Below, piece by piece: positions 12,651 through 59,146 of a stretch of DNA of 64,000 nt. Within the stretch, counting starts at the first letter, position 1, and each line of letters starts with the position of its first letter. The stretch is taken from assembly GCF_013343005.1 (NCBI RefSeq), contig NZ_CP054491.1, positions 2,834,501 through 2,898,500 on the forward strand. Reading direction: 5' to 3'. This DNA comes from Candidatus Reidiella endopervernicosa (GTDB lineage: Bacteria > Pseudomonadota > Gammaproteobacteria > GCF-013343005). Both the position numbers and the translations under genes were made by a program. The notes under the pieces were generated by a model. It was given only the letters and a program-made list of their open reading frames with translations, had not been told where the DNA came from and did no database searches.

Positions 12651-12934
12651 CCGGGAGTCGCTATTTTTGCGAAAGTTTGTTTTGGGCATCCAAGCCCAAG
12701 CAAACAGCAAAAACTTAACGCGACCATTTATGCCTACGGCGCCCCGACCGTCCTGCGTACGTTGCGTAATCACCTCTTCGCGGCTCTACACAACTCCCTC
12801 AGTGACTCTACGCCGACATAAAGCCGCTGCTGCATCTTCTTCGTCGTTCGCTCGCGCTCTCAACTACGAATATGCAGACGGCGTCGACTATCGAGGACTA
12901 ACCGCCCTCACTTCGCTCTCCATGGCGGTCAGCG
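12651..12934 (+). mobile_element. 283-bp intragenic hairpin-ended repeat, copy A
   Basis: Copy A, 284 bp, inserted after codon 3 of the acidic gene (left flank ATGAGCGAT, right flank AACGAAAAC), same orientation as the gene. It runs from CCGGGAGTCGC to GGCGGTCAGCG. The flanks show no duplication; joining them continues the frame as MSDNENNSD. It has the family 5' hairpin (GTCGC pairing with GCGAC, TTTTTGC with GCAAAAA, GTTTG with CAAAC, TTGGGC with GCCCAA) and the 3' hairpin CTAACCGCC/GGCGGTCAG. Confidence 0.9.
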
Positions 12935-13863
12935 AACGAAAACAACAGCGACCTCCCACCTGAGCTTGAAGAGTTCATTAATGAGTCTGCCGAAAGTAGT
13001 GAAAGTGCCTCTGATGATGGCCTGAACGCCAATCTGACCAGCGATATGAGTGATGATGGCGATGAGATGCAGAGCCTCGATATCGATCTGGCTATGGGCA
13101 ACAACATGCCTGCTGTCATTGAACAATCCACTGAAGATGATGATGAGATCCCGGTCCTTAACAGCGTTGCACTCAGCGGCGAAGAGGCGCGCGAGATCGC
13201 TGCGGCAACGGAGATCACAACACCTGCTGCTGCCGCTGAAGCGACTGCCTCAACAACCGATAGCATCGATCTCGATGAGCTCTTCCCTGAGGATAACGAT
13301 GAGGACTCGGCCAGTACTGAGAGTGACGTAGCTGCGCAGATCGATGAAATCGTACAGCTCGCCGATGACCAGGAAACAACAGCAGCCGAGAGCCCTAATG
13401 ATGCGGATGCCATTGATGTCGATTCACTACTGGCTGAGACGGGCGATGCAGAGTCAAACGAGTCGACTACTGAAGAGATAGACACACCTGAAGAGATCGA
13501 TATCGACTCGCTTATTGATGAGGCTAACGAAACAGACGCTGAGCCCGCAGCTGAACCAGATACCGACACAGAGATGGTTGATATCGACGCACTGATCGCT
13601 GAGAACGATGTGGCGGACAATGAACCGGCAACTGAAAGTGCGGATGATACTGAAGAGAACATAGATATCGACGCCCTGTTTGCTGAGGCGAGCGGTGATG
13701 AAGGAGAGACATCCTCAGAAAGCGCTCCCGACACCTCAACAGCGGACGACGGCGGTGAGAGTATCGACATTGATGCGCTCCTGGCAGAGACCGAAGAGTC
13801 TGGGAGTGACGCCGCTACAGAGGCACCGAGTGATAGCGAAGGCGAAGAGGAGATCGATATTGA

Positions 13864-14146
13864 TCGGGGAGTCGCTATTTTGCGGAAGCATGTTTTGGGC
13901 ATCCAAGCCCAAGCAAGCGGCAAATACTTAACGCGACCGTTTATGCCTACGGCGCTCCGACCGTCCTGCGTACGTTGCGTAATCACCTCTTCGCGGCTCT
14001 ACACAACTCCCTCAGTGACTCTACGCCGACATAAAGCCGCTGCTGCATCTTCTTCGTCGTTCGCTCGCGCTCTCAACTACGAATAGGCAGACGGCGTCGA
14101 CTATCGGGACTAACCGCCTTCGCTTCGCTATCCATGGCGGTCAGCG
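13864..14146 (+). mobile_element. 283-bp intragenic repeat, copy B (most diverged)
   Basis: Copy B, 283 bp, in sense within the acidic gene, splitting an IDIDALFAEA motif: the left flank ends ATTGA and the right flank starts TGCGCTCTTC, together rebuilding ATT GAT GCG CTC. It is the most diverged copy. The 5' arm pentamer is GCATG where others have GTTTG, and the partner arm is CAAGC where others have CAAAC, so one base pair has changed on both sides. It also begins TCGGGGAG instead of CCGGGGAG. Confidence 0.88.
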
Positions 14147-14229
14147 TGCGCTCTTCGCCGAAGCTAGCTCTGAAAGTGATACGCCATCACCGACAACAGC
14201 TGCCGCTGAATCAGAGCAGGCTGAAGAGA

Positions 14230-14740
14230 GTGAAGATGAGATTGATATCGACGCACTCTTTGCCGAGGCAGGTAGCGCAGAAGCTGAACCAACTGCTGAG
14301 ACTGTAGAGAGTCCCAGCTCAGAGGAGAGCGCTGAAGAGATCGACATCGACGCACTCTTTGCCGAAGCAGGTAGCGCGGAAGCCGAACCAGCTGCAGAGC
14401 CTGTAGAGAGTTCCAGCTCAGAGGAGAGCGCTGAAGAGATCGACATCGACGCACTCTTTGCCGAAGCAGGTGGCGCAGAAGCCGAACCAGCTGCAGAGCC
14501 TGTAGAGAGTTCCAGCTCAGAGGAGAGCGCTGAAGAGATCGACATCGATGCACTCTTTGCCGAAGCAGGTAGCGCAGAAGCTGAATCGGTTGCAGAGCCT
14601 GTGGAGAGTACCAGCTCAGAGGAGAGTGTCGAGGAGATCGACATCGACGCACTGCTTTCCGAGGCTGACGAATCAAGCGCCGCCCCCATCGACGAGCCAA
14701 ATGAGGAGGTCGACATTGACGCCCTACTCGCTGATGCCGG
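14230..14740 (+). repeat. Tandem 99-bp coding repeats (33-residue acidic units)
   Basis: The string CGACATCGA(C/T) recurs at 14342, 14441, 14540 and 14639, an exact 99-bp spacing, within units encoding EEIDIDALFAEAG followed by an Ala/Glu/Ser linker. Three units are almost identical at nucleotide level, and flanking ones are degenerate. Exact in-frame spacing and high identity suggest recent unequal duplication, so repeat number may vary between strains. Confidence 0.85.
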
Positions 14741-15170
14741 CGATACAACCGACACTTCATCAGAAGTCGCCGTGACAGAGGAAGAGGCAACAACCGACAA
14801 TGATGATGCCGCTTTCGATATAGATGCGCTACTGACAGAAACGAGCGCCGAAAGTAGTGAACCCACTGAAGAAATCATTGATTTAACAGAAGAGCCATCC
14901 GCCAGCGCAACAGAGAGTGATAATTTTGATGTCGATGCGCTGATTGCCGCAGCACCTGAGTCGTTGGAATCCGATGAGAGTGTCGAGACTGATCTCGCTG
15001 ATGCCTACGCCCTGCTTGATGTTGATGCGACCAGCAACGAAACCAGCGAAACCAACGAGATCCCTTCTGAGAGCGAGACTACCCCTTCACTCAACGCTGA
15101 TCAGGCCGTTCAACTCGGAGCAGAGATCGGCATCGCTATCTCGGAGGCCACATCGAAGGCCGTGAGTGAG

Positions 15171-15453
15171 CCGGGGAGTCGCTATTTTTGCGAAAGTTTG
15201 TTTTGGGCATCCAAGCCCAAGCAAACAGCAAAAACTTCACGCGACCGTTTATGCCTGCGGCGCCCGACCGTCCTGCGTTCGTTGCGTAATCACCTCTTCG
15301 CGGCTCTACACAACTCCCTCAGTGACTCTACGCCGACATAAAGCCGCTGCTGCATCTTCTCCGTCGTTCGCTCGCGCTCTCAACTACGAATAGGCAGACG
15401 GCGTCGACTATCGGGACTAACCGCCCTCACTTCGCTCTCCATGGCGGTCAGCG
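15171..15453 (+). mobile_element. 283-bp intragenic repeat, copy C
   Basis: Copy C, 283 bp, in sense near the 3' end of the acidic gene. The left flank ends GTGAGTGAG and the right flank starts GCGGTCGGCGCC, together reading V S E A V G A in frame with the final 35 codons. It carries the TAG-containing variant AATAGGCAG in its central part, unlike copies A, D and G. Confidence 0.9.
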
Positions 15454-15564
15454 GCGGTCGGCGCCATCTCTGAGACGATTGAGGCGACCGTTCGTGAACA
15501 GCTCAATCAGCGACTACCCGAAATGATCTCCAAGGTACTCAAAGAGCACCTGAACAAATAACAA

Positions 15565-16767
15565 TCAGGCAGGGCTATAGACGACGAAATCGTTGCGCCC
15601 TGCCCGCTTCGCCCGATACATCGCATCGTCAGCCCGCTTGATCAACAGGTCATACTGCGTGCCGTGCTCTGGATAGAAGCTGATGCCGATACTGGTCCCG
15701 ATCTCGACTGTCTCACCGTTAATTTCAAATGGTGCCTGGATCGCCTTAACGATTTTACTCGCCACCTTCTGACACCCCTCACTTCCCTCTATGTGTCGAG
15801 TCACGGCAACGAACTCATCGCCGCCAAAACGAGCCAGCACATCCTCACGACGCAACAGAGCCGAAATCCGATCAGCCACCTGCCTCAACAGCTCATCGCC
15901 GGCATCGTGCCCCAGTTGATCATTAACCGGTTTAAAACGATCCAGATCAAAAAACATCAGCGCGAACTGCTCATGCTGCGGTTCGGACACCGCAAACAGA
16001 TGCGAAAGATAGTCAAATAGTGCCGCACGATTCGGTAGCCCGGTCAGTGCGTCCTTATTGGCCCGCTCCTCAAGCTGCACATAGGAGTCTTCAAGCGCGG
16101 TGAGGTTATCGCTGATGGTCTGTGCTTCACGGCTGGTACAGCGGTAGACGATGACTGCCGCTACCGCGCCGACCAGTAGCACGATGACACTGAGCCAGAT
16201 CGTCAATGTGAGGGTTCGGCTGTAGGCCATATTGGCTTCAGAGACCGCCTGCTGTGTGAGCCGCGTCTGCAGTTCACGCATGCTCTGTAGCGTCTCATTG
16301 ATCTGAGCCTAAATCGGAATCGCCTCTCGCAACATCAGTGAGCGAGCCGCCTCAAGATCGCTAGCCGTCGCCAGATCAACCACGCGATCCTGTACCACCA
16401 GCACCAACTCGATCAGCTCACTCTGGTGGTTATAGATCGCCTTCTCCTCGGGGCCCATTCCCGATTCACGAATTAAGCGACGCGCCTTACCCACCTCATA
16501 GCCCTCGTGGGTAAAGGCCATGAACTTCTCATCACGGCTGAAGGCATCATCAACCAGCAGCATGTTGTAGAGGTAGTCAGTTCGTCGGTAGCCCGCCACC
16601 TGCATTTCAGTGGCAATCTGAATCTTGCGGTTGTTCTCAGAGGTGATTTTATTGAGGGTGTTGTGGGAAGACTGCAGTTGCATCACAGCATAGACCGCCA
16701 TGCCTGCCAGCAATATAAGTAGCAGGGCAAACCCAGCGATGGTGACTGTCTTCAAATATCGCAGCAT
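15565..16767 (-). pseudogene. Membrane diguanylate cyclase (GGDEF) gene with an in-frame amber codon
   Basis: Reading from ATG 16767, an N-terminal membrane helix (TVTIAGFALLLILLAGMAVYAV), a helical periplasmic sensor region like four-helix-bundle domains, a second membrane helix near 16200 (LSVIVLLVGAVAAVIVY) and a C-terminal GGDEF domain follow. The active-site motif is intact (RFGGDEFVAV) and a product-inhibition RxxD site (RRED) lies five residues ahead. The frame is broken only by TAG at 16311-16309 (REAIPI-stop-AQINETLQSM); a single C-to-T change from CAG would explain it, and no shift is needed. The catalytic half could still be made from a downstream ATG (16281). It is convergent with the acidic gene. 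Confidence 0.8.
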
Positions 16768-16863
16768 AAAGGTCGATTTCTTATTAAAAACAACGCTATC
16801 CGGACATCCTAACACGCCTTTTTGGCAGTTGTTGTGATGACACGAATCGGTGCCCTGATCGGG

Positions 16864-16869
16864 TATAAT
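16864..16869 (+). promoter_or_regulatory. Consensus -10 hexamer ahead of valS
   Basis: A perfect TATAAT lies 52 bp before the valS ATG. At 17 bp spacing the -35 position (16841-16846, CACGAA) is poor, so this is only a candidate promoter. Confidence 0.4.
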
Positions 16870-16920
16870 GCTCCGCTTTATTGCGCCCCGCGCCCTCATC
16901 GACATCGAGCCCGAGTGACC

Positions 16921-19743
16921 ATGGACAAGACCTACAATCCCCAACAGATCGAACAGCGCTGGTACCAGAGCTGGGAAGAGAACGGCTACTTCGCACCAAA
17001 CGGCGGCAGCAGTGGTTCAGCATATAGCGTCATGATCCCACCACCGAATGTCACCGGCAGCCTGCACATGGGCCACGGCTTTAACAATACGGTGATGGAC
17101 ACCCTGATTCGCTACCACCGCATGAAGGGTGATAACACCCTCTGGCAGCCGGGCTCAGACCACGCCGGTATCGCCACGCAGATGGTGGTTGAACGCCAGC
17201 TCGCCGCCGAGGGCAAGACGCGTCACGATCTGGGTCGTGATGCCTTCATCGACCGTATCTGGGAGTGGAAGGAGGAGTCAGGCGGCAACATCACCCGCCA
17301 GCTGCGTCGTCTTGGTTCATCGCTCGACTGGCAACATGAGCGCTTCACCATGGACGACGGCCTCTCCGATGCCGTTAAAGAGGTCTTTGTACGCCTGCAC
17401 GAAGAGGGACTGATCTACCGTGGCAAACGCCTGGTCAACTGGGATCCCAAACTGCACACCGCCGTCTCCGACCTTGAGGTACTCAACGAGGAGGAGAACG
17501 GCCACATGTGGCACATGCGCTATCCGCTCTCCAACGGTACAGGCCACCTTGTTGTCTCCACCACGCGCCCCGAGACGATGCTCGGTGACTGCGCGGTGGC
17601 GGTCAATCCAGAGGATGAGCGCTATAAACATATGATCGGTGAGAAGGTTGAGCTGCCGCTGACCGGACGCCTGATTCCGATCGTTGCCGACGAACACGCC
17701 GATCCCGAGTTCGGCACTGGCTGTGTAAAGATCACCCCAGCCCACGACTTCAACGACTACGCCGTCTGGCAGCGTCATCGTGATGAGACGGGCATCTCCG
17801 ATCAGATTCACGGTGGCCTGATCAACATCTTCACCATCGATGCCGCTGTGCGCGAGAATGACGAGGGTGAAGGTGAGCTGATCCCAGCCAAATACATCGG
17901 TCTGGATCGCTACGAGGCACGCAAGCAGATCGTATCCGATCTCGATGCAGCGGGTCTGCTGGATAAGATCGTCGACCACAAACTGATGGTGCCTCGCGGT
18001 GATCGCTCCGGCGCGGTCATCGAACCGTTCCTCACCGATCAGTGGTACGTCAAGGTCGAGCCGCTGGCCAAACCTGCTATCGAGGCAGTCGAAACGGGCA
18101 AGATCAAGTTCGTACCGGAGAATTGGAAGAACACCTACTACGACTGGATGCATAACATTCAGGACTGGTGCATCAGCCGCCAGATCTGGTGGGGCCATCG
18201 CATTCCCGCCTGGTACGACGATAACGAGAATATCTACGTTGGTCGTAGCGAAGAAGAGGTGCGCGAGAAACACAACCTCGCAGCCGACTACCCACTACGT
18301 CAGGATGAGGATGTACTCGACACCTGGTTCAGCTCTGCGCTGTGGCCCTTCTCCACCCTCGGCTGGCCCGAGGATAGCGAAAGGCTGAAGGCGTTCTATC
18401 CCACCAGCGTACTGGTCACCGGCTTTGACATCATCTTCTTCTGGGTCGCCCGCATGATCATGATGGGCCTAAAGTTTATGGACGGCGATGTACCTTTCCA
18501 GGAGGTCTACGTACACGGTCTGGTGCGCGATTCACAGGGCAACAAAATGTCGAAGTCGAAGGGCAACGTACTCGACCCGATCGATCTGATCGATGGCATT
18601 GAGCTTGATGCACTGGTAGCGAAACGCACCGCCAACATGATGCAGCCGGAGCTGGCAAAGAAGATCGAGAAACAGACCCGCAAGGAGTTCCCCGATGGCA
18701 TCCCCGCCTTCGGTACCGATGCACTACGTTTCACCTTCGCATCACTCGCTTCCACCGGCCGCGACATCAACTTCGACCTCGGTCGTATCGAGGGCTATCG
18801 CAACTTCTGCAACAAGCTCTGGAACGCCACCAACTATGTGTTGATGCAGACCGAAGATAAAAACGATAACAACTCCGACGAGTTTGAATTAGCGCCCGCT
18901 GATCGCTGGATCATCTCTCGGCTTCAGCGTGTAGAGCAGACGGTCAACAGCGCCATCGATGGCTACCGTTTCGACCGTGCCGCCAGTGCCATCTACGAAT
19001 TCACCTGGGATGAGTACTGCGCCTGGTATCTGGAGCTCTCCAAGCCGGTTCTTTATGGGGATGAGAGCTCAGAGGCACAGCAGCGCGGCACACGACAGAC
19101 CCTGCTACGCGTTCTGGAGACAATCCTGCGCTTGCTACACCCGATCACCCCCTATATCACCGAAGAGATCTGGCAGAAGATCGCACCGCTTGCAGGCATT
19201 ACCGGTGAAACGATCATGCTGCAGCCCTACCCTCAGGCTGATGAAGCACTCATCGATGGCACCGCTGAAGCGGAGATGGCATGGGTGATGGATTTCATCG
19301 TTGGTGTGCGCAAGATCCGCTCCGGCATGAATATTCCACCGAGCAAACCACTCACGGTCATGCTTCAGAACGGTTCCGAACAGGACCGTGGCTACCTGGA
19401 GGCCAACGAACGCTTCCTGGCCAACCTCGCCAAGACCGAGTCGATCACCTGGCTCAACGAGGGCGACGAAGCCCCTGAGTCCTCGACCTCACTGGTCGGC
19501 GAGATGAAGCTACTGGTCCCAATGGCTGGCCTGATCGACAAGGATGAAGAGTTGGCTCGCCTCGGCAAAGAGATCGAGAAGCTAGAGAAAGAGGTACAAC
19601 GCACCGAGGGTAAACTCAATAATGAGAAGTTCATCGGCAAGGCACCCGAAGCGGTAGTACAGAAGGAGCGCGACAAACTGGCCGATGCCAGGGCATCACT
19701 TGAATCGCTTATCGAACAGCGGTCCAAAATCGAAAAACTGTAG
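16921..19743 (+). CDS. valS: Valyl-tRNA synthetase
   Basis: A 940-residue class I synthetase charging tRNA-Val. ATG 16921 reads [24 protein letters not shown], the typical start. The HIGH motif is [14 protein letters not shown] (about residues 40-53), the CP1 editing domain follows, and KMSKS is present in [14 protein letters not shown]. The C-terminal coiled-coil arm ([20 protein letters not shown]) is intact. An in-frame extension to 16822 is unsupported by family alignment from memory. Confidence 0.95.
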
Positions 19744-19811
19744 GAAACTCTTTTAATGAATATGAATCAGCATCCGCAACTGATCCAGTTCGCTACAAAC
19801 AGGGATGTCAG

Positions 19812-20875
19812 ATGAGAAGAGTGATCACCGTTCACGGGATGAAGCGGAGCGGTAATCACGCCATCATCAACTGGTTAAGACAGCAAGAGAAGAGTTGCTT
19901 CTTCAACGACATCATTATGATAAAACCGATCTTGCTGGGGCAAAAGGAGATTCCTCCATCACAGCCATTTACAAGCTGGCTCAGCGACAACCATTACAAA
20001 AAATCTCCTCTCAGCAATCTCGCCAAGAAAATAAAATCGAGAAACCGTTCTCTCTACGTCAGCCTGGAGGATCACGAGTTAAGCATCAGGCCCTTTAAAG
20101 ACATTCCCATCGAGCACATCAATATTCTTATTATTCGAGATGCCACCAATCACTTGGCAAGCAGATTAAAATCGTCTTTGAGCAACAATTACCCCATTTA
20201 CCCTGCTGAAGCGGGACCGCAAATGGATAGAGTTATCGCCACATGGAAGAGTCATGCACGCGAATTTCTGGGGGAAACAAACCAGCTAAACAATAAAGTT
20301 TGTATCTATTATGCCGGGGAGTCGCTATTTTGCGAAAGTTTGTTTTGGGCATCCAAGCCCAAGCAAACAGCAAAAACTTAACGCGACCGTTTATGCCTTC
20401 GGCGCCCCGACCGTCCTGCGTACGTTGCGTAATCACCTCTTCGCGGCTCTACACAACTCCCTCAGTGACTCTACGCCGACATAAAGCCGCTGCTGCATCT
20501 TCTTCGTCGTCCGCTCGCGCTCTCAACTACGAACATGCAGACGGCGTCGACTATCGGGGACTAACCGCCCTCACTTCGCTCTCCATGGCGGTCAGCGATC
20601 GCTGGTTTAGTAGTCAAACCTATCGAAAACGAATCAGCAAACAACTCGATCTTGAATTTTCAGACCGTGGGTTTTCCAGAGTATCCAATGATGGAGGCGG
20701 GAGCTCTTTCGATGGCAGAAAATACGATGGCAACAACCAGATGATGGATGTTCTCAATCGCAAGCATCACCTATCACCTGAACATCAGCAGCTGCTCGAA
20801 GATATATTTGATGATGAATTGACGGCTCTCAACGAAAAGCTCTCAGCAACCGTCACGCGGCAACTCAACGATTAG
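19812..20875 (+). pseudogene. Sulfotransferase-like P-loop protein gene interrupted by a 284-bp element
   Basis: Exons 19812-20313 and 20598-20875 join into a 259-residue frame. The N-terminus has a P-loop-like segment (VHGMKRSGNHAIINWL) of the kind that binds the 5'-phosphosulfate in sulfotransferases, and LIIRDATNHLASRL resembles the 3'-phosphate binding Arg/Ser motif. The joined sequence at the insertion reads CIYYDRWFSS, continuous and plausible. The AT-richer composition, relative to valS next door, suggests acquisition. The substrate is unknown; cell-surface carbohydrate is a common target in such families. As written in DNA, translation stops inside the element. Confidence 0.7.
20314..20597 (+). 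mobile_element. 283-bp intragenic repeat, copy D
   Basis: Copy D, 284 bp, in sense within the sulfotransferase-like gene. Left flank TATTATG and right flank ATCGCTGG rebuild TAT TAT GAT CGC TGG with no duplicated or missing base. It has four rather than five T in the first T run of the 5' hairpin. Confidence 0.9.
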
Positions 20876-20903
20876 TAAACGTCTGGTACCGCCTGGATAC
20901 ACA

Positions 20904-21758
20904 CTAACCCTCGTTTGCTTCTCGCAGCCGCTCCAGGCGAGCTTGCTCCTCAGCAAAGGCGGCTTTAATCTCAAGCATCACCTCATCAACATCCGCCTCA
21001 CGGGTATCCTCTTCAAAATAACCCGTTAGCTCCACTTCAGGAGTCAGATCACCCTCTTCATAGAGCGCCCAAATCTCCTTGGCGTAGCGACTTTCGGATA
21101 ACACAGGGGCGAACTGTGCATAGTAGGTAGTAATGGCACTGACATCCCGCTCCAGCATCCACTCGGCGTGGTTATTAGCCGCCGCATCTACCGCCTGCGG
21201 CAGATCGATTATCACTGGGCCGTATTCGTCAACGAGCACATTAAATTCCGACAGATCGCCATGCACCAGGCCGGCACAGAGCATGCGGACCACGTAACGC
21301 ATCATTATGTCGTGGTCCTCCAGCGCCTGCTCGGCAGACATTGAGACATCGTTCAGACGAGGTGCAACCTGACCCTCTTCATCGGTAATCAGCTCCATCA
21401 GTAGCACACCATCAAAACAGCCGTAGGGCTGAGGGACACGAACATCCGCATCTGCTAAGCGATAGAGGGCATCGACCTCAGCATTTTGCCAGACCTGCTC
21501 CTGCTCACCTCGACCAAATTTCGAGCCCTTCTCCATCGCACGAGCGCGTCGGCTGTTACGAACCTTACGTCCCTCCTGATACTGCACCGCCTGTTTGAAA
21601 CTGCGCTTATCGGCCTCCTTGTAGACCTTGGCACAACGGACCTCAGAACCACAGGAGACGAGATAGACGGAGGCCTCCTTACCACTCATCAGTGGTCGGA
21701 TAACCTTATCCACCAGACCATCATCGACCAGCGGCTGTATACGTTTGGGAGTTTTCAT
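20904..21758 (-). CDS. RIO-type serine/threonine protein kinase
   Basis: A 284-residue RIO kinase domain protein. The nucleotide-binding region is LMSGKEASVYLV with Lys in VRCAKVYKE; the catalytic loop is LVHGDLSEFNVLV with Asp and Asn in place; and the metal-binding segment is VIIDLPQAVD. Bacterial RIO proteins of this type occur in many gammaproteobacteria as single genes of unknown target. It lies convergent with the sulfotransferase-like gene and no partner gene is adjacent. Confidence 0.87.
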   Translation of the reverse strand: MKTPKRIQPLVDDGLVDKVIRPLMSGKEASVYLVSCGSEVRCAKVYKEADKRSFKQAVQYQEGRKVRNSRRARAMEKGSKFGRGEQEQVWQNAEVDALYRLADADVRVPQPYGCFDGVLLMELITDEEGQVAPRLNDVSMSAEQALEDHDIMMRYVVRMLCAGLVHGDLSEFNVLVDEYGPVIIDLPQAVDAAANNHAEWMLERDVSAITTYYAQFAPVLSESRYAKEIWALYEEGDLTPEVELTGYFEEDTREADVDEVMLEIKAAFAEEQARLERLREANEG

Positions 21759-22002
21759 AGAATCAGAAAGGACAAAGCACTTTTAACAATCGTATGTGCA
21801 TTTTAACACTCAAAGGACCAACTTGCCGATTTTAAACGGTTTTTTATCTCAAACATCGCAATGCAGTTCTATGATTACTGCCGTCAGAGATATAAACCAA
21901 ATACAACCACACGGACTAAATTTACCCAGTTTGTAATCGGTGCTTACGAAGCGTAACGACAATTCATTGGGCAAAACAGCAGATAATGGGTAATAGCAAT
22001 GG

Positions 22003-22197
22003 ATGCCAACCAACAAGATCATCTATTCAATACCTCAAATGCACGGTGCGACACTACTTAATGTTGATCCCGGAGAGAATGCAACTCTCATGGGTAGAAT
22101 CGGAAAAATCATGTCCCTTTCCACTGAAATCGTAGAACGACTTAATAATATTGGTAATGCAATATTGAACGATTTCTACACTGGGTGGACCCGGTAG
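22003..22197 (+). CDS. Small unknown ORF (64 aa)
   Basis: Unrecognised; it starts MPTNKIIYSIPQMHGATLL. It has no clear SD, signal peptide or membrane helix. It shares the frame of the next small ORF across two stop codons (TAG at 22195 and TGA at 22222), so the two may be remains of one longer gene. It could equally be chance ORF in AT-rich DNA. Confidence 0.25.
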   Translation: MPTNKIIYSIPQMHGATLLNVDPGENATLMGRIGKIMSLSTEIVERLNNIGNAILNDFYTGWTR

Positions 22198-26352: not shown

Positions 26353-26637
26353 CGCTGACCGCCATGGAGAGCGAAGTGAGGGCGGTTAGTCCCCGATAGT
26401 CGACGCCGTCTGTATATTCGTAGTTGAGAGCGCGAGCGAACGACGGAGAAGATGCAGCAGCGGCTTTATGTCGGCGTAGAGTCACTGAGGGAGTTGTGTA
26501 GAGCCGCGAAGAGGTGATTAGGCAACGTACGCAGGACGGTCGGGGCGCCGCAGGCATAAACGGTCGCGTGAAGTTTTTGCTGTTTGCTTGGGCTTGGATG
26601 CCCAAAACAAACTTTCGCAAAAATAGCGACTCCCCGG
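26353..26637 (-). mobile_element. 283-bp intragenic repeat, copy E
   Basis: Copy E, 285 bp, on the minus strand and in sense with the GGDEF-EAL gene. In the gene direction the left flank ends AAGGGTGA and the right flank starts GAAGAGTGG, giving IKGEKSGCGS then stop. Read through without removal, the protein would gain about 57 element-encoded residues before a stop. Confidence 0.9.
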
Positions 26638-28889: not shown

Positions 28890-29172
28890 CCGGGAGTCGC
28901 TATTTTTGCGAAAGTTTGTTTTGGGCATCCAAGCCCAAGCAAACAGCAAAAACTTAACGCGACCGTTTATGCCTACGGCGCCCCGACCGTCCTGCGTACG
29001 TTGCGTAATCACCTCTTCGCGGCTCTACACAACTCCCTCAGTGACTCTACGCCGACATAAAGCCGCTGCTGCATCTTCTTCGTCGTCCGCTCGCGCTCTC
29101 AACTACGAATAGGCAGACGGCGTCGACTATCGGGACTAACCGCCCTCACTTCGCTCTCCATGGCGGTCAGCG
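28890..29172 (+). mobile_element. 283-bp intragenic repeat, copy F (antisense to host gene)
   Basis: Copy F, 283 bp, plus strand, inside the minus-strand GGDEF-EAL gene, so antisense. Flanks are CATTAA and GTGGAAGG; joining them gives T S F H L M N Y F G in the gene frame. It is the only antisense copy of the seven and forms an inverted pair with copy E about 2.25 kb away. Confidence 0.9.
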
Positions 29173-49718: not shown

Positions 49719-49834
49719 CTCCTGGCCTCTCCCGCGCCGCTGCGGGTATCTACCCATGAGTTCGCCGCTGTACCCCCCTAACGCCAACAGATAGAATGGC
49801 GCGCTGAAATTCATATAACGAACCGAGGCCGCCC

Positions 49835-51559
49835 ATGCGTCTATCACAATTCCCACTCTCCACGCTCAAAGAGACCCCTGCCAACGCCGAGGTGATCAGT
49901 CACCAGCTGATGCTGCGCTCCGGCATGATTCGCAGACTCGCCTCCGGTCTCTATACCTGGATGCCGTTAGGTCTTAAGGTACTGCGCAAGGTGGAGAACA
50001 TTGTGCGCGAGGAGATGAACCGCGCCGGTGGAGTTGAACTACTGATGCCGGCGGTGCAACCCGCTGAGCTGTGGCAGGAATCGGGACGCTGGGATGCGAT
50101 GGGCCCCGAGATGCTGCGTCTGAGTGATCGCCACAACCGCGACTTCTGCTTCGGACCGACACACGAAGAGATCATTACCGACCTGGCGCGTAACGAGCTG
50201 CGCAGTTACAAACAGCTGCCGATGACCTACTACCAGATCCAGACCAAATTCCGCGACGAGCGTCGCCCCCGCTTTGGTGTGATGCGTGCACGAGAGTTCC
50301 TGATGAAGGATGCCTACTCCTTCCATGTCGATGACGCCTCGCTCAAGGAGACCTATCAGGTAATGCACGACGCTTACTCGCGCATCTTCACCCGTCTCGG
50401 ACTCAACTTCCGGCCAGTGCTGGCCGATACCGGCGCCATCGGTGGCAGTGGCTCACACGAGTTCCACGTGTTGGCCGACTCGGGCGAGGATGCCATCGCC
50501 TTCTCTACCGAGAGCGACTACGCCGCCAACATCGAGAAGGCCGAGGCACTGCAGCCACAGGGTGAGCGCCCCGCGCCCTCTGCCGAGATGGCGGTGGTCG
50601 AGACCCCCGAGCAGAAAACGATCGAGGAGGTTTCTAACTTCCTCAAGGTCGCAACCGACCAGACCCTCAAGACGTTATTGGTGCACGGTGCCACTGAAGA
50701 GGGTGAGCTTGAGGGCGTGGTAGCACTGGTATTGCGTGGCGATCATGAACTCAACGAGATCAAGGCTGAGAATCTGTCGCAGGTCTTTGCCCCTCTGACC
50801 ATGGCATCCGATGAGGAGATTCGTGCTGCAGTCGGCTGTAGCGCCGGCTCAATCGGACCGCTTGATGTCGGCATTCCGACCATCGTCGATCGCGATGCCG
50901 CACAGCTGGCCGATTTTATTTGTGGTGCCAACGAAGACGGAAAACACCTTAGCGGTGTGAACTGGGAGCGTGATCTACCGATGGCGCAGATTGCCGATCT
51001 ACGCAACGTTGTCGAGGGAGATGCCAGCCCCGACGGCAAGGGTACGTTGACCATCAAACGTGGTATTGAAGTCGGCCACATCTTTCAGCTCGGCGAGAAG
51101 TACAGCAAGGCACTTAACGCCACCGTGCTCGATGAATCTGGACGCGAACAGGTGATGACCATGGGCTGTTACGGCATCGGTGTCTCACGCGTGGTCGCGG
51201 CAGCGATTGAACAGAATCACGATGATAACGGCATCAGCTGGCCCACCCCGATCGCCCCCTTCCAGGTCGCTCTGCTGCCGATGAATATGCAGAAATCACA
51301 ACGCCTGCGCGAGGCGATCGAGAAGCTCTATGCCGAGATGAATGAGACCGGGCTCGATGTGGTGCTGGATGATCGCGGTGTTCGCCCCGGCGTGATGTTC
51401 GCCGACATTGAGCTGATCGGAATCCCACATCGCGTGGTACTGGGTGAGCGTGGACTCGACAGCGGCATGGTCGAGTACAAGGGTCGCAACGATAGCGACT
51501 CCAGAGATATTCCACTGAGTGATCTGGTCGCGTTTCTTAAAGAGGCGTGCGCCGACTAG
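49835..51559 (+). CDS. proS: Prolyl-tRNA synthetase (bacterial type with INS editing domain)
   Basis: A 574-residue class II synthetase. It opens [20 protein letters not shown], motif 2 is [22 protein letters not shown], the INS editing domain occupies about residues 225-400 ([21 protein letters not shown]), and the motif 3 region [20 protein letters not shown] precedes the anticodon-binding domain. Length matches the bacterial ProRS group. Confidence 0.95.
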
Positions 51560-51562
51560 GTA

Positions 51563-51832
51563 CTACTGAGTGGTAAAGGTGGTGGGGGGTATCTCGTCTG
51601 CCAGCTCACACACCACCTGATCCACTTGGGAACCGGGTGAACCAAGCCAGAGCCACTCACTCAATAGATCGACCTGCCCCTCTTCCCCACAGGCGAGCAC
51701 CTCAACGGTGCCATCGACCAGATTACGCGCATAACCGACCAGGCCCAGCTGTGCAGCACGCTGCTGGGTGGTGGCACGAAACCAGACACCCTGCACTCGT
51801 CCAGTGACCCGGCAGCGCTTGCAGACGGTCAT
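51563..51832 (-). CDS. acyP: Acylphosphatase
   Basis: An 89-residue acylphosphatase hydrolysing acyl phosphates. The catalytic Arg is in VTGRVQGVWFRATTQQRA and the Asn in VGYARNLVDGTVEV. It overlaps the upstream adaptor gene by 4 bases, so it appears to be the last gene of the tlpA-TolC-adaptor operon. Confidence 0.9.
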   Translation of the reverse strand: MTVCKRCRVTGRVQGVWFRATTQQRAAQLGLVGYARNLVDGTVEVLACGEEGQVDLLSEWLWLGSPGSQVDQVVCELADEIPPTTFTTQ

Positions 51833-52581
51833 GGCAGAATAATCTTCGCCTTTTGACCTAGATAGAGATGGTCGTTGCTGTGTGAAAAGGCGACATCTAG
51901 CTGGTGCCCCCCTTCAACAGCACCAATCGATGCAACACGAGCACGATAACGCTGCTTACCCACTACGACCGTTGCCGAGCTGCCGATCTCAATCTTTCTG
52001 GCCAGGCTCGATTCGATTTTAGTCACCGCCCGCATCCGTCCTGCATAGGTAACCACCAGCAGTGGTGCTGTCTGTAGCTCACTAACAATTGAAGCGCCCG
52101 GCTCAACCAACCGCTCCACCACCCAGGCATCAAAGGGGGCGGAGATGGCACTCCGCTCCAGATCGAGCGTTGTCTCTACCAGTCGCAGCTCTGCGCTTCG
52201 CATCGCAAGGGAAGCTGCTGCGAAGTTAACCTTAGACTGCTCATACTCATGATTGGAGAGCACGGTCCGATCGTAGAGTTCATCGGCACGTTGCTGTTCA
52301 CGCTCAGCCTCCTGAAAGAGCAACCTGGCATGTTCAAGCGCGGCCTCGGCCTCAGCATTGCGTGCCTTAAAGAGACGATCATCGAACTGCAATAGAAGCG
52401 CGCCCTGATCAACATGCTGCCCCGGCTCAACATTCACCGCTTTCACCACACCCGAGACGAGCGGTGAGAGTTCAACTCGCTTTGACCAGTCGAGCTTGGC
52501 TGCCAGTTCTGCACTCCAGGCCTGAGCAGGCATCGAGAGCAGTAGCGACAGGAAAAGTGTTCTCATAGTTACCGCAGCCAT
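51829..52581 (-). CDS. Efflux periplasmic adaptor (RND/HlyD-type)
   Basis: A 250-residue membrane-fusion-type adaptor. ATG 52581 is preferred since it has SD GGGGAG and starts a signal peptide (MRTLFLSLLLSMPAQAWSAE). A lipoyl-like half (ELSPLVSGVVKAVNVEPGQHVDQG), a helical hairpin and the second lipoyl half (SAPFDAWVVERLVEPGASIV) are visible. It is shorter than the usual 350-400 residues, lacking most of the membrane-proximal part. No pump gene follows; acyP does. Confidence 0.78.
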   Translation of the reverse strand: MAAVTMRTLFLSLLLSMPAQAWSAELAAKLDWSKRVELSPLVSGVVKAVNVEPGQHVDQGALLLQFDDRLFKARNAEAEAALEHARLLFQEAEREQQRADELYDRTVLSNHEYEQSKVNFAAASLAMRSAELRLVETTLDLERSAISAPFDAWVVERLVEPGASIVSELQTAPLLVVTYAGRMRAVTKIESSLARKIEIGSSATVVVGKQRYRARVASIGAVEGGHQLDVAFSHSNDHLYLGQKAKIILP

Positions 52582-52591
52582 TAATTCTCCC

Positions 52592-53926
52592 CTACTCATT
52601 ACCCTTTACTCCTCCAGCCAGCCAGTAACTTCCCGGTCGATTGCCGGTCAGTGCATCGAGCTTCGCCCACGCTAGCAGCAGTTCATAGTCGGTCTTGGTT
52701 CGCTGATAACGTGCCTCGGCAAAACGCACCATTGCATCACCAAGATCGGTCTTCACCTCCAGCTCATAGAGCGCCCGGCTCCGATCGAGGTAGAGGTCAC
52801 GATAGTCAGCCAGCGCCACCATCTCTTCGCGCTTGATATGCAGCAAGCCGATCTGCTGCCACAGCTCCAGCAGCCGCTGATTCATCTCGCGCTGTTCAAT
52901 AGCGTAGTCGGCCTGCAAGCCGTGTAGAGAGGCACGCGCCTTGGCAACCGCCGCATTTACCCGCCCACCCGTGAAGAGCGGCACATCGAGCACCAACCCG
53001 GCACGGAAGGGATCGCGTGAGCCACCGTCACGATTGTAAATGCTGCTCTCCAGCTCACCGCTAAGCTGCGGACGCCCCTCTCGACGCGCCGCCTCAACAC
53101 GCAGCCGTGCGGCCTCCAACAACTCTCGCTGGGCACGCATACGTGGATTGGATTCAACAGCTGCGGCCAACAGCGTCTCGAACTCAGGCAGCTTACGATC
53201 AAGCGCACCCAGCTCCGGTTCGACCAGTTCAGAAGAGAGTTCACCGGGACGATTCAGCGCCGCTGCCAATAGGGCACGCGTGCTGCGCTTCTGGGCACTG
53301 CTTGAGGCAACTCGCAGACGCTGGGTCTGATAGTTACTCTCATACTCGAGCAACTCAATATCAGAGAGCTGTCCGAGTTCGTTACGATCCCGCGCCTTGT
53401 CGAGGGTGACAAAGGCGATCGCCATCCCCTCGTTATCGACCCCGTTCTGGACATCGGCCAGCAGCACATCAAAAAAGCGCTCCATCACCTCGATCCGTTT
53501 CTGATCCTCGGCGCGCCGTAGGTTGAGGCGCTCACCCGTGAGCTGCGCCTCTCCAGCCGCCTCGGCGTGACGGCTCTGGCCAAAGTCATAGAGGCGTTTA
53601 CGTAGATAGAGATGCGCGCTGCTGTCGTTATGGGATTGATCGGCGGCCAGATCCGCGGGTTCGATCCAGCGCGCCTTACCCTGCAGGCTCAGCTGGGTAC
53701 CGTTGGCAGCATCGACTGCAAGCAGCTCCGCCTCAGCACGCTGGTAGGCGGCCTCGACACGTTGAAATTGGGGGTGTGACTCCGCATCTGCAACGACAAA
53801 CGCCTCGCTAAGTGAGAGCGGTTCCGGCAGTGAACCGGCAGCCGATTCAGCCGAGGCCCATGTCGCAACAAGCAGTAGTGCACTGCCGAGCATCCCGGCA
53901 GCGATGCATCTCGGCGCGTGGATCAT
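52592..53926 (-). CDS. TolC-family outer membrane efflux protein
   Basis: A 444-residue outer-membrane channel subunit. It has a signal peptide (MLGSALLLVATWASAESA), duplicated helical repeats, and the ordinary TolC pattern such as LVLDVPLFTGGRVNAAVAKA. It overlaps the thioredoxin-like gene upstream and the adaptor gene downstream. Confidence 0.85.
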   Translation of the reverse strand: MIHAPRCIAAGMLGSALLLVATWASAESAAGSLPEPLSLSEAFVVADAESHPQFQRVEAAYQRAEAELLAVDAANGTQLSLQGKARWIEPADLAADQSHNDSSAHLYLRKRLYDFGQSRHAEAAGEAQLTGERLNLRRAEDQKRIEVMERFFDVLLADVQNGVDNEGMAIAFVTLDKARDRNELGQLSDIELLEYESNYQTQRLRVASSSAQKRSTRALLAAALNRPGELSSELVEPELGALDRKLPEFETLLAAAVESNPRMRAQRELLEAARLRVEAARREGRPQLSGELESSIYNRDGGSRDPFRAGLVLDVPLFTGGRVNAAVAKARASLHGLQADYAIEQREMNQRLLELWQQIGLLHIKREEMVALADYRDLYLDRSRALYELEVKTDLGDAMVRFAEARYQRTKTDYELLLAWAKLDALTGNRPGSYWLAGGVKGNE

Positions 53927-54465
53927 CTGTTCTTCGACGCCTTACGTTTCTCTCGCTTATAGCGGGTGAATGACTGCTTCTGGTAGTGGCCATCGACAAA
54001 GTATTCACCCATCCAGAGAAACTCATCGGGACCCGAAGTAGCGCCTGTATAGCGAACCACCTGCTCGCCCTGCAGGTCATAGAAGGCAATCACCGGAGTG
54101 GCACGCACCCGGTTTACCTTGAAGGAGAAATCTTTCTGCGACATCGTCTCGCCCTTGAAGTCGACCATCTCCACATCGCCTTCGATATCGATAGCGAAGC
54201 TGAGCATGTTCTCCTTGAAGAACTTCTGCACCTCGGGGCGATTTAGCACGGTGCGCTTCATGCGATGACAGAAGGGACACTCGTCCATCTCAAAGAAGAT
54301 CAGCACCCCCTTTTTGCCCTCCTCCTTGGCGTTGGCCAGCTCCTCCTGCAGATCACCAAAGAACTGATCGAAGAAGTGGACGTACGGATCACGAGTTTCG
54401 ACCGATGCAGCCTCAATCGTTACGGTAAAGATAAGCAGCGAGATGGCTGCCAGTAGCTGTTTCAC
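53923..54465 (-). CDS. Periplasmic thioredoxin-fold protein with CPFC motif
   Basis: A 180-residue exported protein with signal peptide MKQLLAAISLLIFTVTIEA. The active-site motif is EMDECPFCHRMKRTVL, followed by the cis-Pro strand VRATPVIAFYD. It resembles the DsbD C-terminal domain and SoxW-like thioredoxins. Together with the TlpA-like gene it indicates a periplasmic disulfide pathway; the partner is unknown. Confidence 0.8.
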   Translation of the reverse strand: MKQLLAAISLLIFTVTIEAASVETRDPYVHFFDQFFGDLQEELANAKEEGKKGVLIFFEMDECPFCHRMKRTVLNRPEVQKFFKENMLSFAIDIEGDVEMVDFKGETMSQKDFSFKVNRVRATPVIAFYDLQGEQVVRYTGATSGPDEFLWMGEYFVDGHYQKQSFTRYKREKRKASKNR

Positions 54466-54944
54466 GAACGCTCCTCCCTGTCGCGTTTTTCATCTTCAAT
54501 AAATTGCTCAAGCATCTGTGCCTCAATACCACCCAGATAGCTTCCGACCACCTTACCCTCAGGCGAGACGACAAAGGTGGTTGGCAAACCCTTGAGGGGC
54601 TCGAACGATTTAACCGGTTTGTTATTTGTCAGCAGCACTGGATAGGAGATCAATTGGTCATCGACAAAGCTGCCCAGCCGATCACTGTCAATCTGCTCAA
54701 AGTTGATTCCCAACACCACTGAGTCGTTATCTTTATGCTTGTCGTGATAACCAATCAGCTCTGGAATCTCCTCAAGGCAGGGTGGACACCAGGTTGCCCA
54801 GAAGTTAACCACCACCCACTTGCCACGATAGTCAGAGAGCTTGTGGATCTTGCCATCGACACCCTGCAGCGCAAAATCGGCCGCATCAGCAGCAAACAGC
54901 GAGGGGGTAAAAAGGAGTAGAATCAGAGTCAAAATTCGACGCAT
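54462..54944 (-). CDS. TlpA/ResA-like thiol-disulfide oxidoreductase
   Basis: About 160 residues from ATG 54944, chosen for SD GGAAGGG and the signal peptide RRILTLILLLFTPSLFA. The active site is NFWATWCPPCLEEIPELIG and the cis-Pro is in KGLPTTFVVSPEGKV. Such proteins reduce periplasmic disulfides, often for cytochrome c maturation. It overlaps the next gene by 4 bases, heading a five-gene run to acyP. Confidence 0.85.
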   Translation of the reverse strand: MRRILTLILLLFTPSLFAADAADFALQGVDGKIHKLSDYRGKWVVVNFWATWCPPCLEEIPELIGYHDKHKDNDSVVLGINFEQIDSDRLGSFVDDQLISYPVLLTNNKPVKSFEPLKGLPTTFVVSPEGKVVGSYLGGIEAQMLEQFIEDEKRDREERS

Positions 54945-55040
54945 TACAAACCCTTCCTTACGAGACAAAACCGATCTGATATAAACTGTAGGGAAATTCA
55001 TAGTCGCACACCTCTCTACCCAAAGACATCAGGGATTACC

Positions 55041-56561
55041 ATGACTCTTATTCGCCAAGATGATTTCATCACAACCGTTGCCGATGCCCTCCAGTTCATC
55101 TCTTTTTACCACCCTACTGACTTTATTGAAGCACTTGGAACGGCATACGAAAAGGAGCAATCGCCTGCAGCCCGTGATGCCATCGCGCAGATTCTGACCA
55201 ATTCGAAGATGTGCGCCGAGGGACACCGACCAATTTGCCAGGATACTGGTATCGTCACAGTGTTCCTCAAGATCGGTATGGGCGTGAGCTGGGAGGCAAG
55301 CCAGAGCGTCGAAGAGATGGTCAACGAGGCGGTGCGGCGTGCATACACCGCCGCAGAAAACCCGCTACGCGCCTCGATCGTCAGCGATCCTGCCGGCAAA
55401 CGCAGCAATACCCGAGATAACACCCCAGCAGTGATCCACACCGAGGTGGTTGCGGGTGACAAGCTCGATATCACCGTCGCCGCCAAGGGAGCAGGATCGG
55501 AGAACAAGACCAAGTTTACGGTGCTCAATCCAAGTGACAGCCTGGTTGATTGGGTGGTCAAAACGGTTCCCACTCTGGGTGCAGGCTGGTGTCCACCCGG
55601 TATGCTCGGTATCGGTATCGGCGGTACGGCCGAAAAGGCGATGCTGCTGGCCAAAGAGGCGCTGATGGAGCCGATCGATATTCAGCAGCTTCAGGAGCGT
55701 GGCGCACAGAATCGTGCCGAGGAGCTACGCCTTGAGATCTACGACAAGGTCAACGCACTGGGTATCGGCGCACAGGGACTCGGTGGTCTCACCACCGTGC
55801 TCGATGTAAAGGTCTTCGACTACCCAACCCATGCCGCCTCACTGCCGGTGGCACTGATCCCCAACTGCGCCGCCACCCGCCATGCACATGTGGTGATGGA
55901 TGGTCGCGGCCCGGTGCTACTCGAGCCACCCAAGCCTGAGACGTGGCCTGCAGTCGAGTGGCAGCCGAGTCCCGATGCACGGGTTGTCGATCTTGAGACC
56001 CTGACCCAGACTGATACCAACGATTGGAAGCCGGGCGAAACGCTACTGCTCAACGGCAAGATCCTCACTGGTCGCGATGCGGCCCACAAACGCATCTGTG
56101 ATCTGCTCGATCGTGGTGAACCGCTGCCCGAGGGGCTCGACTTTACCAACCGCTTCATCTACTACGTCGGACCTGTCGATGCGGTGGGTGATGAGCCGGT
56201 CGGACCTGCGGGGCCGACCACTGCAACCCGCATGGACAAGTTCTCCGATCAGATGCTCGACACCGGCCTGCTCGGCATGATTGGCAAGGCGGAGCGTGGT
56301 GCAGCAACCATCAACAGTCTTGAGCAGCACCACGGCGTCTACCTGATTGCTACCGGCGGTGCCGCCTATCTGATCTCACGCGCCATTCGTGGATCTCGAG
56401 TCATCGCCTTTCCCGAACTAGGCATGGAGGCGATCTACGAGTTCGAGGTGGAGAATATGCCGGTCACCGTAGCGGTCGATGCGCATGGCGGTTCGGTGCA
56501 CAACAGCGGCCCCGCAGAGTGGCAGGCGAAGATCGGTAAGATTCCCGTCGTAACGGCTTAA
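55041..56561 (+). CDS. Fumarate hydratase, class I (iron-sulfur)
   Basis: A 506-residue dimeric 4Fe-4S fumarase, interconverting fumarate and malate. The N-terminal half has cluster Cys positions in SKMCAEGHRPICQDTG and later IPNCAATRHAHV; the C-terminal half has the DAVGDEPVGPAGPTTATRMDKF segment and IGKAERG. It is divergent from the tlpA gene and convergent with the YqhA-like gene. Confidence 0.93.
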   Translation: MTLIRQDDFITTVADALQFISFYHPTDFIEALGTAYEKEQSPAARDAIAQILTNSKMCAEGHRPICQDTGIVTVFLKIGMGVSWEASQSVEEMVNEAVRRAYTAAENPLRASIVSDPAGKRSNTRDNTPAVIHTEVVAGDKLDITVAAKGAGSENKTKFTVLNPSDSLVDWVVKTVPTLGAGWCPPGMLGIGIGGTAEKAMLLAKEALMEPIDIQQLQERGAQNRAEELRLEIYDKVNALGIGAQGLGGLTTVLDVKVFDYPTHAASLPVALIPNCAATRHAHVVMDGRGPVLLEPPKPETWPAVEWQPSPDARVVDLETLTQTDTNDWKPGETLLLNGKILTGRDAAHKRICDLLDRGEPLPEGLDFTNRFIYYVGPVDAVGDEPVGPAGPTTATRMDKFSDQMLDTGLLGMIGKAERGAATINSLEQHHGVYLIATGGAAYLISRAIRGSRVIAFPELGMEAIYEFEVENMPVTVAVDAHGGSVHNSGPAEWQAKIGKIPVVTA

Positions 56562-56564
56562 GGT

Positions 56565-57116
56565 CTACTTCTCTGCAGCACGCGAGTGTTTATCACCCGC
56601 GTGAGAGAGATAGAGCGCCAACCCGATCAGGGCGATACCACCCGCCAGATAGAGTAGATCGATCGGTGTCTTGAAGGGCATTCCAATGGCGTGCTCAAAG
56701 AATTTCACTACCAGAATCATCAGGATCACCTTTGCCAATCGCGCCTTCAGGTCATCAAGACTGTGGATCAGCAGGATATTGGATGAGTTTTCAGAACCTT
56801 CCGCCTGATCGATTTTGCTAATAAAGAGTTCATAGAGACCCAACGCAAAGATCAGCAATACTGTCGCCAGTAGATAACCATCAATAATCTCCACCACATG
56901 GGTCACTGTGGTACTCCGCAGCTCGTTACGCGCTTCGATTGAGAGCGAGAATGAAGCGTAGTCACCAAGGTGAGAAATCATCACGACTGCATCGATGGTT
57001 GCCATATAGAAGACAGCAAAGGCGGTCAGTAGACTCGTGATCACTGCCGAAAGCACTACCAACCGGCTATTCCACAACGCACCTTCGAACCACTTTTCAA
57101 GCCGTTTCAACATCAC
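56565..57116 (-). CDS. YqhA family (UPF0114) membrane protein
   Basis: A 183-residue inner-membrane protein with about four helices (LVVLSAVITSLLTAFAVFYM; IDGYLLATVLLIFALGLYELF; VILMILVVKFFEHAIG; LYLAGGIALIGLALYL), the layout of the UPF0114/YqhA family. No catalytic motif is visible and no function is established. It is convergent with the fumarase gene. Confidence 0.82.
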   Translation of the reverse strand: MMLKRLEKWFEGALWNSRLVVLSAVITSLLTAFAVFYMATIDAVVMISHLGDYASFSLSIEARNELRSTTVTHVVEIIDGYLLATVLLIFALGLYELFISKIDQAEGSENSSNILLIHSLDDLKARLAKVILMILVVKFFEHAIGMPFKTPIDLLYLAGGIALIGLALYLSHAGDKHSRAAEK

Positions 57117-57253
57117 TACTAATCCATATAATTATCTGTCGCGCACGATACACGCAGCTTTCCCCACTTTACAAATAGTATTGGCAAGTTATTCTGTCTG
57201 AATATTCACCAGCAGCAAGGTGCAGCGGTTCACGCAGGGAAACCACTAACAAG

Positions 57254-59146
57254 ATGAGAACGCTCCGCCTCACCACCCCAGCGCCTAGCAAACGCATCGA
57301 TCAATCGATAGTGACAAAACCGAAGGCCTTCAAGGATTGGCTCGACTATCTTCCCTACGCCACCCCGGCCAACGCATTAGAGAAGTTAATCAAGGGTGTT
57401 TCCACCCACAACCGCCAGCAGATCTCAACGGCCCACCGCTTCGAGATGCTGGAGATGGTGCAACAGCCCTTTGCAGTCCTGCTCGACGCCTATCTGCAGC
57501 CACGCCCCGATCGCGGCACCCTGCCAATAAACAAACGCAATCGTCAGATCGGCAGCGCCCTGCACAAACTCAGCACCGAGATCGCCTTCGGCTACAAGCT
57601 GGTTATCAAGCAGAGTCTCGGCAGCTCAATCAAACTCGGCCGACACAAGATTCTCCACCCTTCCCTGCAGCGCGCCATGAAGTACCTGGGCATGACACTG
57701 CTCCAATCCTTTATCGACTACACACCAGGCCCGAACAATGTTTGGCGCGAAATTTACCAGATCTACGCATATGCTGAAGAGGCGAAAATTCATGATCAAA
57801 CGATCAGCGATCAAAACGACCGCTTCAATACCGTCACGACCATCCAACGCCTCTTCAAACAGATCATCCTACTCAGCCTGGTCGACCCCTATCGCCTGCC
57901 CGATGGACAGACCTGGCTACTCTTTAACTACCTCAACAACCTTGAGGAGAGCTGCAAGATCACCCCTTTTGGTGAGACAAACAATAATCTTGGATTCTTT
58001 GTTGTCGACCTCAACAGCGACCTGATGCCACAACCGCTCACTGATGAGCAACTACTACTCGACGCACCTCAACTGATCGACACACGCACATTGGTCGCAC
58101 GTGTGAATCAAGAACGTGAATTGGCACAAAAAGGAAATGTACCGGCAAATTTCCCACTACCCACAGAACTCCCCATCAACGACAAGATTCAACTCTTGAT
58201 TCGGCTACAAAAGGGGTGGACCAGTAAACAATCCCGCAAGATGCCACGCGTTGAAGAGGTTGGGAGAGCGCAGGTATTGTGTGGCCTTGATGCCGTTCAC
58301 CACCATCTGGCGACCGACCACCCTAAGAGTGAAAACCAAGAGCAGCACAACGATCAGATTGAGATCACCTCTCAGCTGGGTGATCGACTAAAAAACGGAA
58401 CCCAGGACCATGCGCTTAATCAGTGGCGCCTCATCAACCGAAGCCTCGGCGGGCTCTCACTCGCTGCCAATGCAGCAAGCAACTGCAATCTCACCACCGG
58501 CCAACTGCTCGCCATTCATAGCAACGATAAAGAGAGTGACGAGTGGATCATCGCCATTAGTCGTTGGTTGATTTACGACGCCAATCAGAACGAAAACAAG
58601 TTCGGCATCCAGTACCTGAGCAAAAAACCGCAGGCAGTCCAAATAAAGGCACAGGTTGGCAGCCAGCTGGAGATGGAGTGGCGCCCAGCCATCACCTTTG
58701 AACTCCGGACCAAGAGTGGCATACAGCAGTGCATCGTCTGCGCCAAGGGATTCCACCTGTCGGAACGTGAATTTCAGTTAGTGGAGAACGGAAGTAGCAA
58801 AACGATCAATTGTGGACAGCTGGTTGAGACAACATCATTGGGGAGCCGCTATTTTTGCGAAAGTTTGTTTTGGGCATCCAAGCCCAAGCAAACAGCAAAA
58901 ACTTCACGCGACCGTTTATGCCTGCGGCGCCCGACGTTCTGCGTACGTTGCGTAATCACCTCTTCGCGGCTCTACACAACTCCCTCAGTGACTCTACGCC
59001 GACATAAAGCCGCTGCTGCATCTTCTTCGTCGTCCGCTCGCGCTCTCAACTACGAATATGCAGACGGCGTCGACTATCGGGACTAACCGCCCTCACTTCG
59101 CTCTCCATGGCGGTCAGCGATCGATTGGTTTGTGTACACCAACTAA
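57254..59146 (+). pseudogene. PilZ-like conserved protein gene interrupted near its 3' end
   Basis: Segments 57254-58837 and 59120-59146 join into a 536-residue frame ending TTSIDWFVYTN. The first 290 residues are soluble and mostly helical; the last third (LLAIHSNDKESDEWIIAISRWLIYDANQNENKFGIQYLS) resembles regions ahead of or within PilZ-type c-di-GMP-binding domains, and proteins like this are sometimes labelled c-di-GMP-binding. The canonical PilZ Arg motif was not identified. Without removal, translation runs into the element. If PilZ-like, it joins two GGDEF genes in the window as c-di-GMP-linked. Confidence 0.55.
58838..59119 (+). mobile_element. 283-bp intragenic repeat, copy G
   Basis: Copy G, 282 bp, in sense, eight codons before the stop of the PilZ-like gene. 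Flanks ACATCA and ATCGATTGG rejoin in frame. It begins TTGGGGAGCCGC, so both leading C are T and the first stem base pair is altered. It lies 29.7 kb from the other copies, showing that the family is not one local cluster. Confidence 0.88.

Follow-up and report, generated by a model that had tools for sequence, protein, structure and literature searches.

A gene-free, hairpin-ended mobile element widespread in gammaproteobacterial genomes, with host topoisomerase I as a candidate cutting enzyme

The 64,000-nucleotide (nt) stretch of the Candidatus Reidiella endopervernicosa chromosome analyzed here (the window; contig NZ_CP054491.1, positions 2,834,501 to 2,898,500) contains seven nearly identical copies of a short, hairpin-ended element, at the coordinates given in an earlier note made from the sequence alone. 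The first three, at 12651-12934, 13864-14146, and 15171-15453 (all plus strand), split one open reading frame (ORF; 12642-15561, plus strand) that codes for an acidic protein with EIDIDALFAEA repeats, the first 354 amino acids (aa) of which have no Pfam match. Copy 1, which follows the start codon region of this gene, illustrates the organization of the element: it begins with CC followed by GGGAGTCGC, ends with GGCGGTCAGCG, and has a 5' hairpin at 12657-12724 (GTCGC/GCGAC) and a 3' hairpin at 12898-12932. It is followed by a target motif of the form NNNGH (AACGA, 12935-12939, plus strand) with the target G at 12938; on the opposite strand this reads 5'-TCGTT^, placing a C at -4 of the insertion point. 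Copy 4 (20314-20597, plus strand) splits a 780-nt ORF without a Pfam match (19812-20875, plus strand), and copies 5 (26353-26637, minus strand) and 6 (28890-29172, plus strand) lie in the same PAS/HAMP/GGDEF/EAL gene, the former in sense and the latter in antisense orientation, which corrects the orientation of copy 6 relative to its host gene. Copy 7 (58838-59119, plus strand) is near the 3' end of a 1611-nt ORF, also without a Pfam match (57254-59146, plus strand, its end being placed from the rejoined reading frame).

Deletion of the copies rejoins all four host ORFs, with products of 689, 259, 817, and 536 aa, in agreement with the 2070, 780, 2454, and 1611 nt of the earlier note. Its statement that target duplications are absent is likewise borne out at the window copies, including that at 13864-14146, for which the adjoining tandem-repeat units of the host gene provide an empty site with no base gained or lost. 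The acidic gene has a four-fold 99-bp tandem repeat (EIDIDALFAEA units) at 14223-14717.

The chromosome is a single contig of 3,446,950 bp, and a 38-base core of the element, allowing up to 3 mismatches, finds 304 copies in it (149 plus, 155 minus) and none with a reversed control pattern. Flanks and ORFs were analyzed in 103 distinct full copies taken from extracted loci. Of these, 97 continue with NNNG on the right, extending the fourth-base G seen in the window, and only 3 have G as the fifth base; on the left there is almost no base preference, and the T-N-A noted for several 5' flanks does not form a consensus. When a copy is removed exactly, the resulting ORF reaches 300 aa or more in 27/103 cases, compared with 3 and 9 out of phase, and the boundary takes in two bases preceding the G run in 22 of the 28 phaseable copies. 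The earlier note placed every window copy inside a gene, but genome-wide not all copies are genic: 60/103 lie within an ORF of 150 aa or longer once the element is taken out. The many copies, clean insertions, and restored frames show that the element is mobile. At two loci (L099 and L104) copies are arranged head to tail, joined as CAGCG|GGGGAG and lacking the two extra bases usually present, an arrangement that fits a new copy entering TCCCC^ of an old one.

The element belongs to a larger family. GTDB genomes contain at least 120 stretches that match its conserved 3'-end motif, and most of the matches listed are in Ca. Sedimenticola endophacoides and Ca. Thiodiazotropha ex Gloverina; the sharing of elements hints at sulfur-oxidizing relatives. 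The 59 distinct S. endophacoides copies are nearly identical, each exactly 300 bp long, removal restores the frame in 19 of the 23 that can be phased, and G at +4 is invariant in both genomes (69/69 and 35/35 copies, respectively). A census of 369 sampled gammaproteobacterial genomes with a covariance model of the 3' domain (model R2, used in place of the poorly structured R1) places the family in 50 of them. Members are about 260 to 310 bp long, G at +4 is present in 26/26 diverse loci, and no gene was seen inside any member. The earlier note knew of no described family, and this holds for Rfam (zero matches, introns included), for plasmids, phages, and viral contigs (zero matches), and for the literature searched, in which no description was found. 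ERIC, BOX, RUP, and other interspersed repeats are also non-coding, imperfectly palindromic, and gene-free, but their sequence and fold are unrelated; these repeats make target duplications or rely on known transposases. Among individual loci, one member (L135:5174-5475, contig G015:C17) lies inside a gene that we take by eye to resemble a prokaryotic Argonaute, beside genes similar to those for BREX components. Another, located after a tRNA gene, is near a group II intron (Rfam RF00029; L321:268-343, minus strand). Copies with mirror-image flanks at S. endophacoides loci L161, L204, and L211 are likely assembly artefacts at repeats.

Folding of single sequences gave stability no greater than that of shuffled ones, and the structure of the element was therefore sought by covariation. 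Across nine members, 24 of 47 pairs show compensatory change and 92.8% of cells are paired, with none of 500 shuffles as good; in 26 further diverse members both sides have changed in 173 cells (0/500 shuffles), in an alignment that was fitted to the model and is hence biased towards the structure. The fold comprises a hairpin at either end plus a central multi-stem domain, and because the central domain is conserved as well, the element is unlike a decayed deletion derivative. An internally deleted copy of about 114 bp (L146:2846-2959) retains only the hairpins at its ends; the ends are intact and the target is NNNG. Helices of functional RNAs usually accommodate numerous G-U pairs, whereas G-T accounts for just 0.8 to 2.1% of paired cells here and is not commoner than A-C. 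The fold is thus read as one of DNA, and the covariation with scarce G-U pairs points to folded single-stranded DNA.

These observations bear on two explanations that invoke RNA. A self-splicing or otherwise RNA-removed intervening sequence (an intron, or IStron-like) would account for reading frames restored by exact removal, and the earlier note had raised removal from RNA. Such readings fail because sense and antisense copies are about equally common in host ORFs (33:27 in R. endopervernicosa and 10:9 in S. endophacoides, with window copy 6 itself antisense); with no intron match in Rfam and no reverse transcriptase found, we give them practically no weight. A retro-element, in which a reverse transcriptase copies RNA at the target, would suit a structured non-coding unit with a one-sided target motif resembling a target-primed nick. 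It is nonetheless very improbable: RVT_1 was not found in R. endopervernicosa, where it was rejected as a helper, nor in S. endophacoides, Thiodiazotropha, G371, or G374; none of 63 copies with enough upstream sequence is 5' truncated; and paired positions exchange Watson-Crick pairs with almost no G-U.

The orientation of the copies follows replication. GC skew in R. endopervernicosa changes sign at ∼0.57 and ∼2.25 Mb, the former coinciding with an oriC region that has DnaA boxes at 573-580 kb and dnaA at 573.6 kb, within genes that we take by eye to be dnaA, dnaN, recF, and gyrB (573-580 kb). Among perfect core matches between 0 and 1.85 Mb, plus and minus copies stand at 36:10 to the left of oriC and at 14:72 to its right (p=3e-12), which places the bottom strand on the lagging-strand template in 82%. 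S. endophacoides (p=0.002) and, more weakly, Thiodiazotropha (p=0.057) are biased in the same direction. Availability of NNNG targets would predict the opposite, because G is commoner on the leading strand, and we infer that the element moves through a single-strand intermediate.

An IS91/ISCR/Helitron-like rolling-circle passenger would be expected to have a hairpin just within the 3' end, the target motif on that side, and no duplication, as seen here, but the target differs from GAAC/CAAG, both ends are precise, and Y2_Tnp (PF04986) was found neither in R. endopervernicosa, leaving no such helper there, nor in Thiodiazotropha/G370 or G374; we regard this origin as a very slight prospect. 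The G^TT recombination point of integron attC sites is not shown by the element junction, AGCG^NNNG.

The closest resemblance is to IS200/IS605 elements and their MITE and PATE derivatives, to which the earlier note had likened the element. The comparison is supported in part: the element is non-autonomous and hairpin-ended, with hairpins just inside its ends, makes no target duplication, has a one-sided target motif, is oriented with respect to the lagging-strand template, and would move as a single strand in a similar manner. Membership of the family is not supported. In place of a fixed tetra- or pentanucleotide target there is one near-fixed base (C at -4 on the transferred strand) with weak preferences for W at -2 and Y at -1, and the fold is conserved over the entire element rather than at the ends alone. 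A Y1 gene with matching end hairpins, as the earlier note envisaged, was not found, and several multi-copy genomes have no detectable Y1 gene. REP and REPIN sequences, mobilized by RAYT, are also short, non-coding, hairpin-forming, and dispersed, and follow a similar single-strand logic, but they are about 20 to 100 bp; the element, at 260 to 310 bp, lacks a GTAG-hairpin unit, is intragenic, and has a multi-domain fold, and RAYT is missing from several element-bearing genomes, so that membership of this group was rejected too.

The element could still be a PATE- or REP-like passenger of an IS200/IS605-type or RAYT Y1 transposase acting in trans, for which the strand bias, hairpin ends, and lack of duplication speak together with the presence of Y1_Tnp (PF01797) in R. 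endopervernicosa (three matches) and in 24 of 30 element-bearing genomes. Y1_Tnp was undetected in the other six (G023, G143, G238, G253, G328, and G330), in S. endophacoides, and in a Legionellales metagenome-assembled genome, with the proviso that metagenome-assembled genomes may lack repeated genes; S. endophacoides, G023, G143, and G328 are multi-copy genomes. One of the three R. endopervernicosa matches is disrupted by a copy of the element, although genes that appear broken may be intact in life, because the assembly likely has indel errors. Another is an apparently intact 187-aa RAYT at ∼687 kb (L111, G000:C1:685802-689149), lying amid different, REP-like repeats (GATGGGCAAAGC...GCGTGCCCATC) that bear no relation to the element, and it was rejected as a helper on that ground. 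With no Y1 gene bearing these ends and a target of one base instead of a fixed 4- to 5-nt site, we consider a Y1 helper improbable. In two genomes, loci L175 and L276 have IS200-type tnpA elements within or beside family members, apparently inserted there by coincidence. Three Thiodiazotropha loci (L145, L154, and L215) were considered as autonomous copies and rejected, as they look, by eye and from the start of the reading frame, like an IS5-type insertion within element copies; this IS5-like insertion occupies the same point in several copies.

The target itself suggests a different kind of enzyme. In 255 pooled insertions, read on the transferred strand, C is present at -4 in.98, the -5 position is T (.44), A (.32), or G (.21) and rarely C (.03), -2 is A or T in.69, -1 is T (.43) or C (.33), and +1 is T (.36) or A (.24). 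The consensus on the lagging-strand template is thus 5'-T/A/G-C-N-(A/T)-(T/C)^, with TCNTT^T/A as the commonest bases. This closely resembles the in vivo motif of Escherichia coli topoisomerase I, TCNTT^A/T, which strictly requires the C and shares T favored at -5 and -1 and A/T at -2 (PMC9352719). Bacterial type IA enzymes need C at -4 (PMC9960139), a rule satisfied on the target side at 98% of the 255 sites; the preference depends on R169, and an R169A substitution shifts it to A (PMC7587558). E. coli topoisomerase I acts on single-stranded DNA, leaving 3'-OH and 5'-phosphotyrosine ends, to which the element target may be likened. A type IA topoisomerase is present in 22/22 genomes tested, the three high-copy genomes (R. 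endopervernicosa, S. endophacoides, and Thiodiazotropha) yielded no type IA enzyme other than topoisomerase I, and the equivalent of R169 is kept in TopA of R. endopervernicosa and S. endophacoides. Topoisomerase I differs from a transposase in being a housekeeping enzyme, and no mobile element using it is described in the literature searched.

We hypothesize from these sequence patterns that topoisomerase I is the cutting enzyme, and put at about even the chances that this is a transposon without a protein of its own, moving as a single strand and relying on the host enzyme to cut its target. The transferred strand would be the bottom strand, 5' CGCTGA-hairpin ... hairpin-ACNNT(C/T)G 3', folded as single-stranded DNA. 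At replication forks this strand would enter the single-stranded lagging-strand template immediately 3' of 5'-D-C-N-N-N, without target duplication. Host type IA topoisomerase I would cleave the single-stranded target four nucleotides 3' of the cytosine, keep the 5' end as a phosphotyrosine, and could then join it to another 3' end, while the conserved fold would pair up the element ends and recruit the enzyme. The fuller proposition, that these are transposons encoding nothing, which use host topoisomerase I as transposase and spread as folded single-stranded DNA at forks, we hold at slightly less than even.

The second end of the element fits this scheme less well. A D-C-N-N-Y motif is also conserved there, with G at top-strand position 6 in 24/24 families (tabulated by hand), and an initial idea that C at -4 specifies both ends was ruled out once more families were compared. 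Some families have C at both -4 and -6, and a shorter variant in R. endopervernicosa (GGG) has it at -4 only; restoration of ORFs in G319 and G127 shows that the two extra bases at this end are part of the inserted DNA.

Several points weigh against topoisomerase I. The second-end motif lies two bases inside the true end, giving C at -6 in most families rather than at -4 as in topoisomerase I sites, so the simple rule does not yield the second-end cut, which is the main weakness of the proposal; this end is at a near-fixed distance from the hairpin, which suggests a structure-guided cut. A trans-acting nickase preferring C at -4, or one since lost, would give an identical pattern. Topoisomerase I is universal, and its presence therefore proves nothing; nor does one pooled motif match, together with the absence of other enzymes, prove the catalyst. 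TopA of R. endopervernicosa has Y and F at the positions of E. coli R173 and Y177, and in the genome's only topA gene several small indels within 250 bp break the reading frame (L351 ∼2200-2500, G000:C1 ∼429.9-430.2 kb); these are probably uncorrected long-read errors, and the gene is damaged if they are real.

The principal rival is a trans-acting single-strand nickase or transposase of unrecognized type, borne by a phage, plasmid, or integrative and conjugative element or since lost, with the elements as MITE-like passengers. A helper is the normal arrangement for non-autonomous elements, the search for enzymes covered only a few Pfam families, strand bias and lack of duplication suit any single-strand enzyme, and the two ends are cut at unequal offsets from the motif. 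Yet the extracted loci contain no autonomous relative with these ends, the absence of matches extends to the plasmids, phages, and viral contigs that might carry one, and a non-coding architecture with an internal fold is kept in 50 genomes, unlike in decayed deletion derivatives. We therefore judge such a helper possible though on balance unlikely, and less probable than topoisomerase I.

If host topoisomerase I is indeed the cutting enzyme, the element would be a mobile element sustained by a universal housekeeping enzyme. This would account for the spread of a non-coding family without a transposase through about one in seven of the sampled gammaproteobacterial genomes and would tie type IA topoisomerases to genome rearrangement. 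The hypothesis predicts shifted landing sites with TopA R169A, which is reported to prefer A at -4 (PMC7587558). Should another enzyme prove responsible, the family would still be a large, unannotated one of mobile elements, abundant in two gill-symbiont assemblies and with about 300 copies in one chromosome, where many genes are interrupted.

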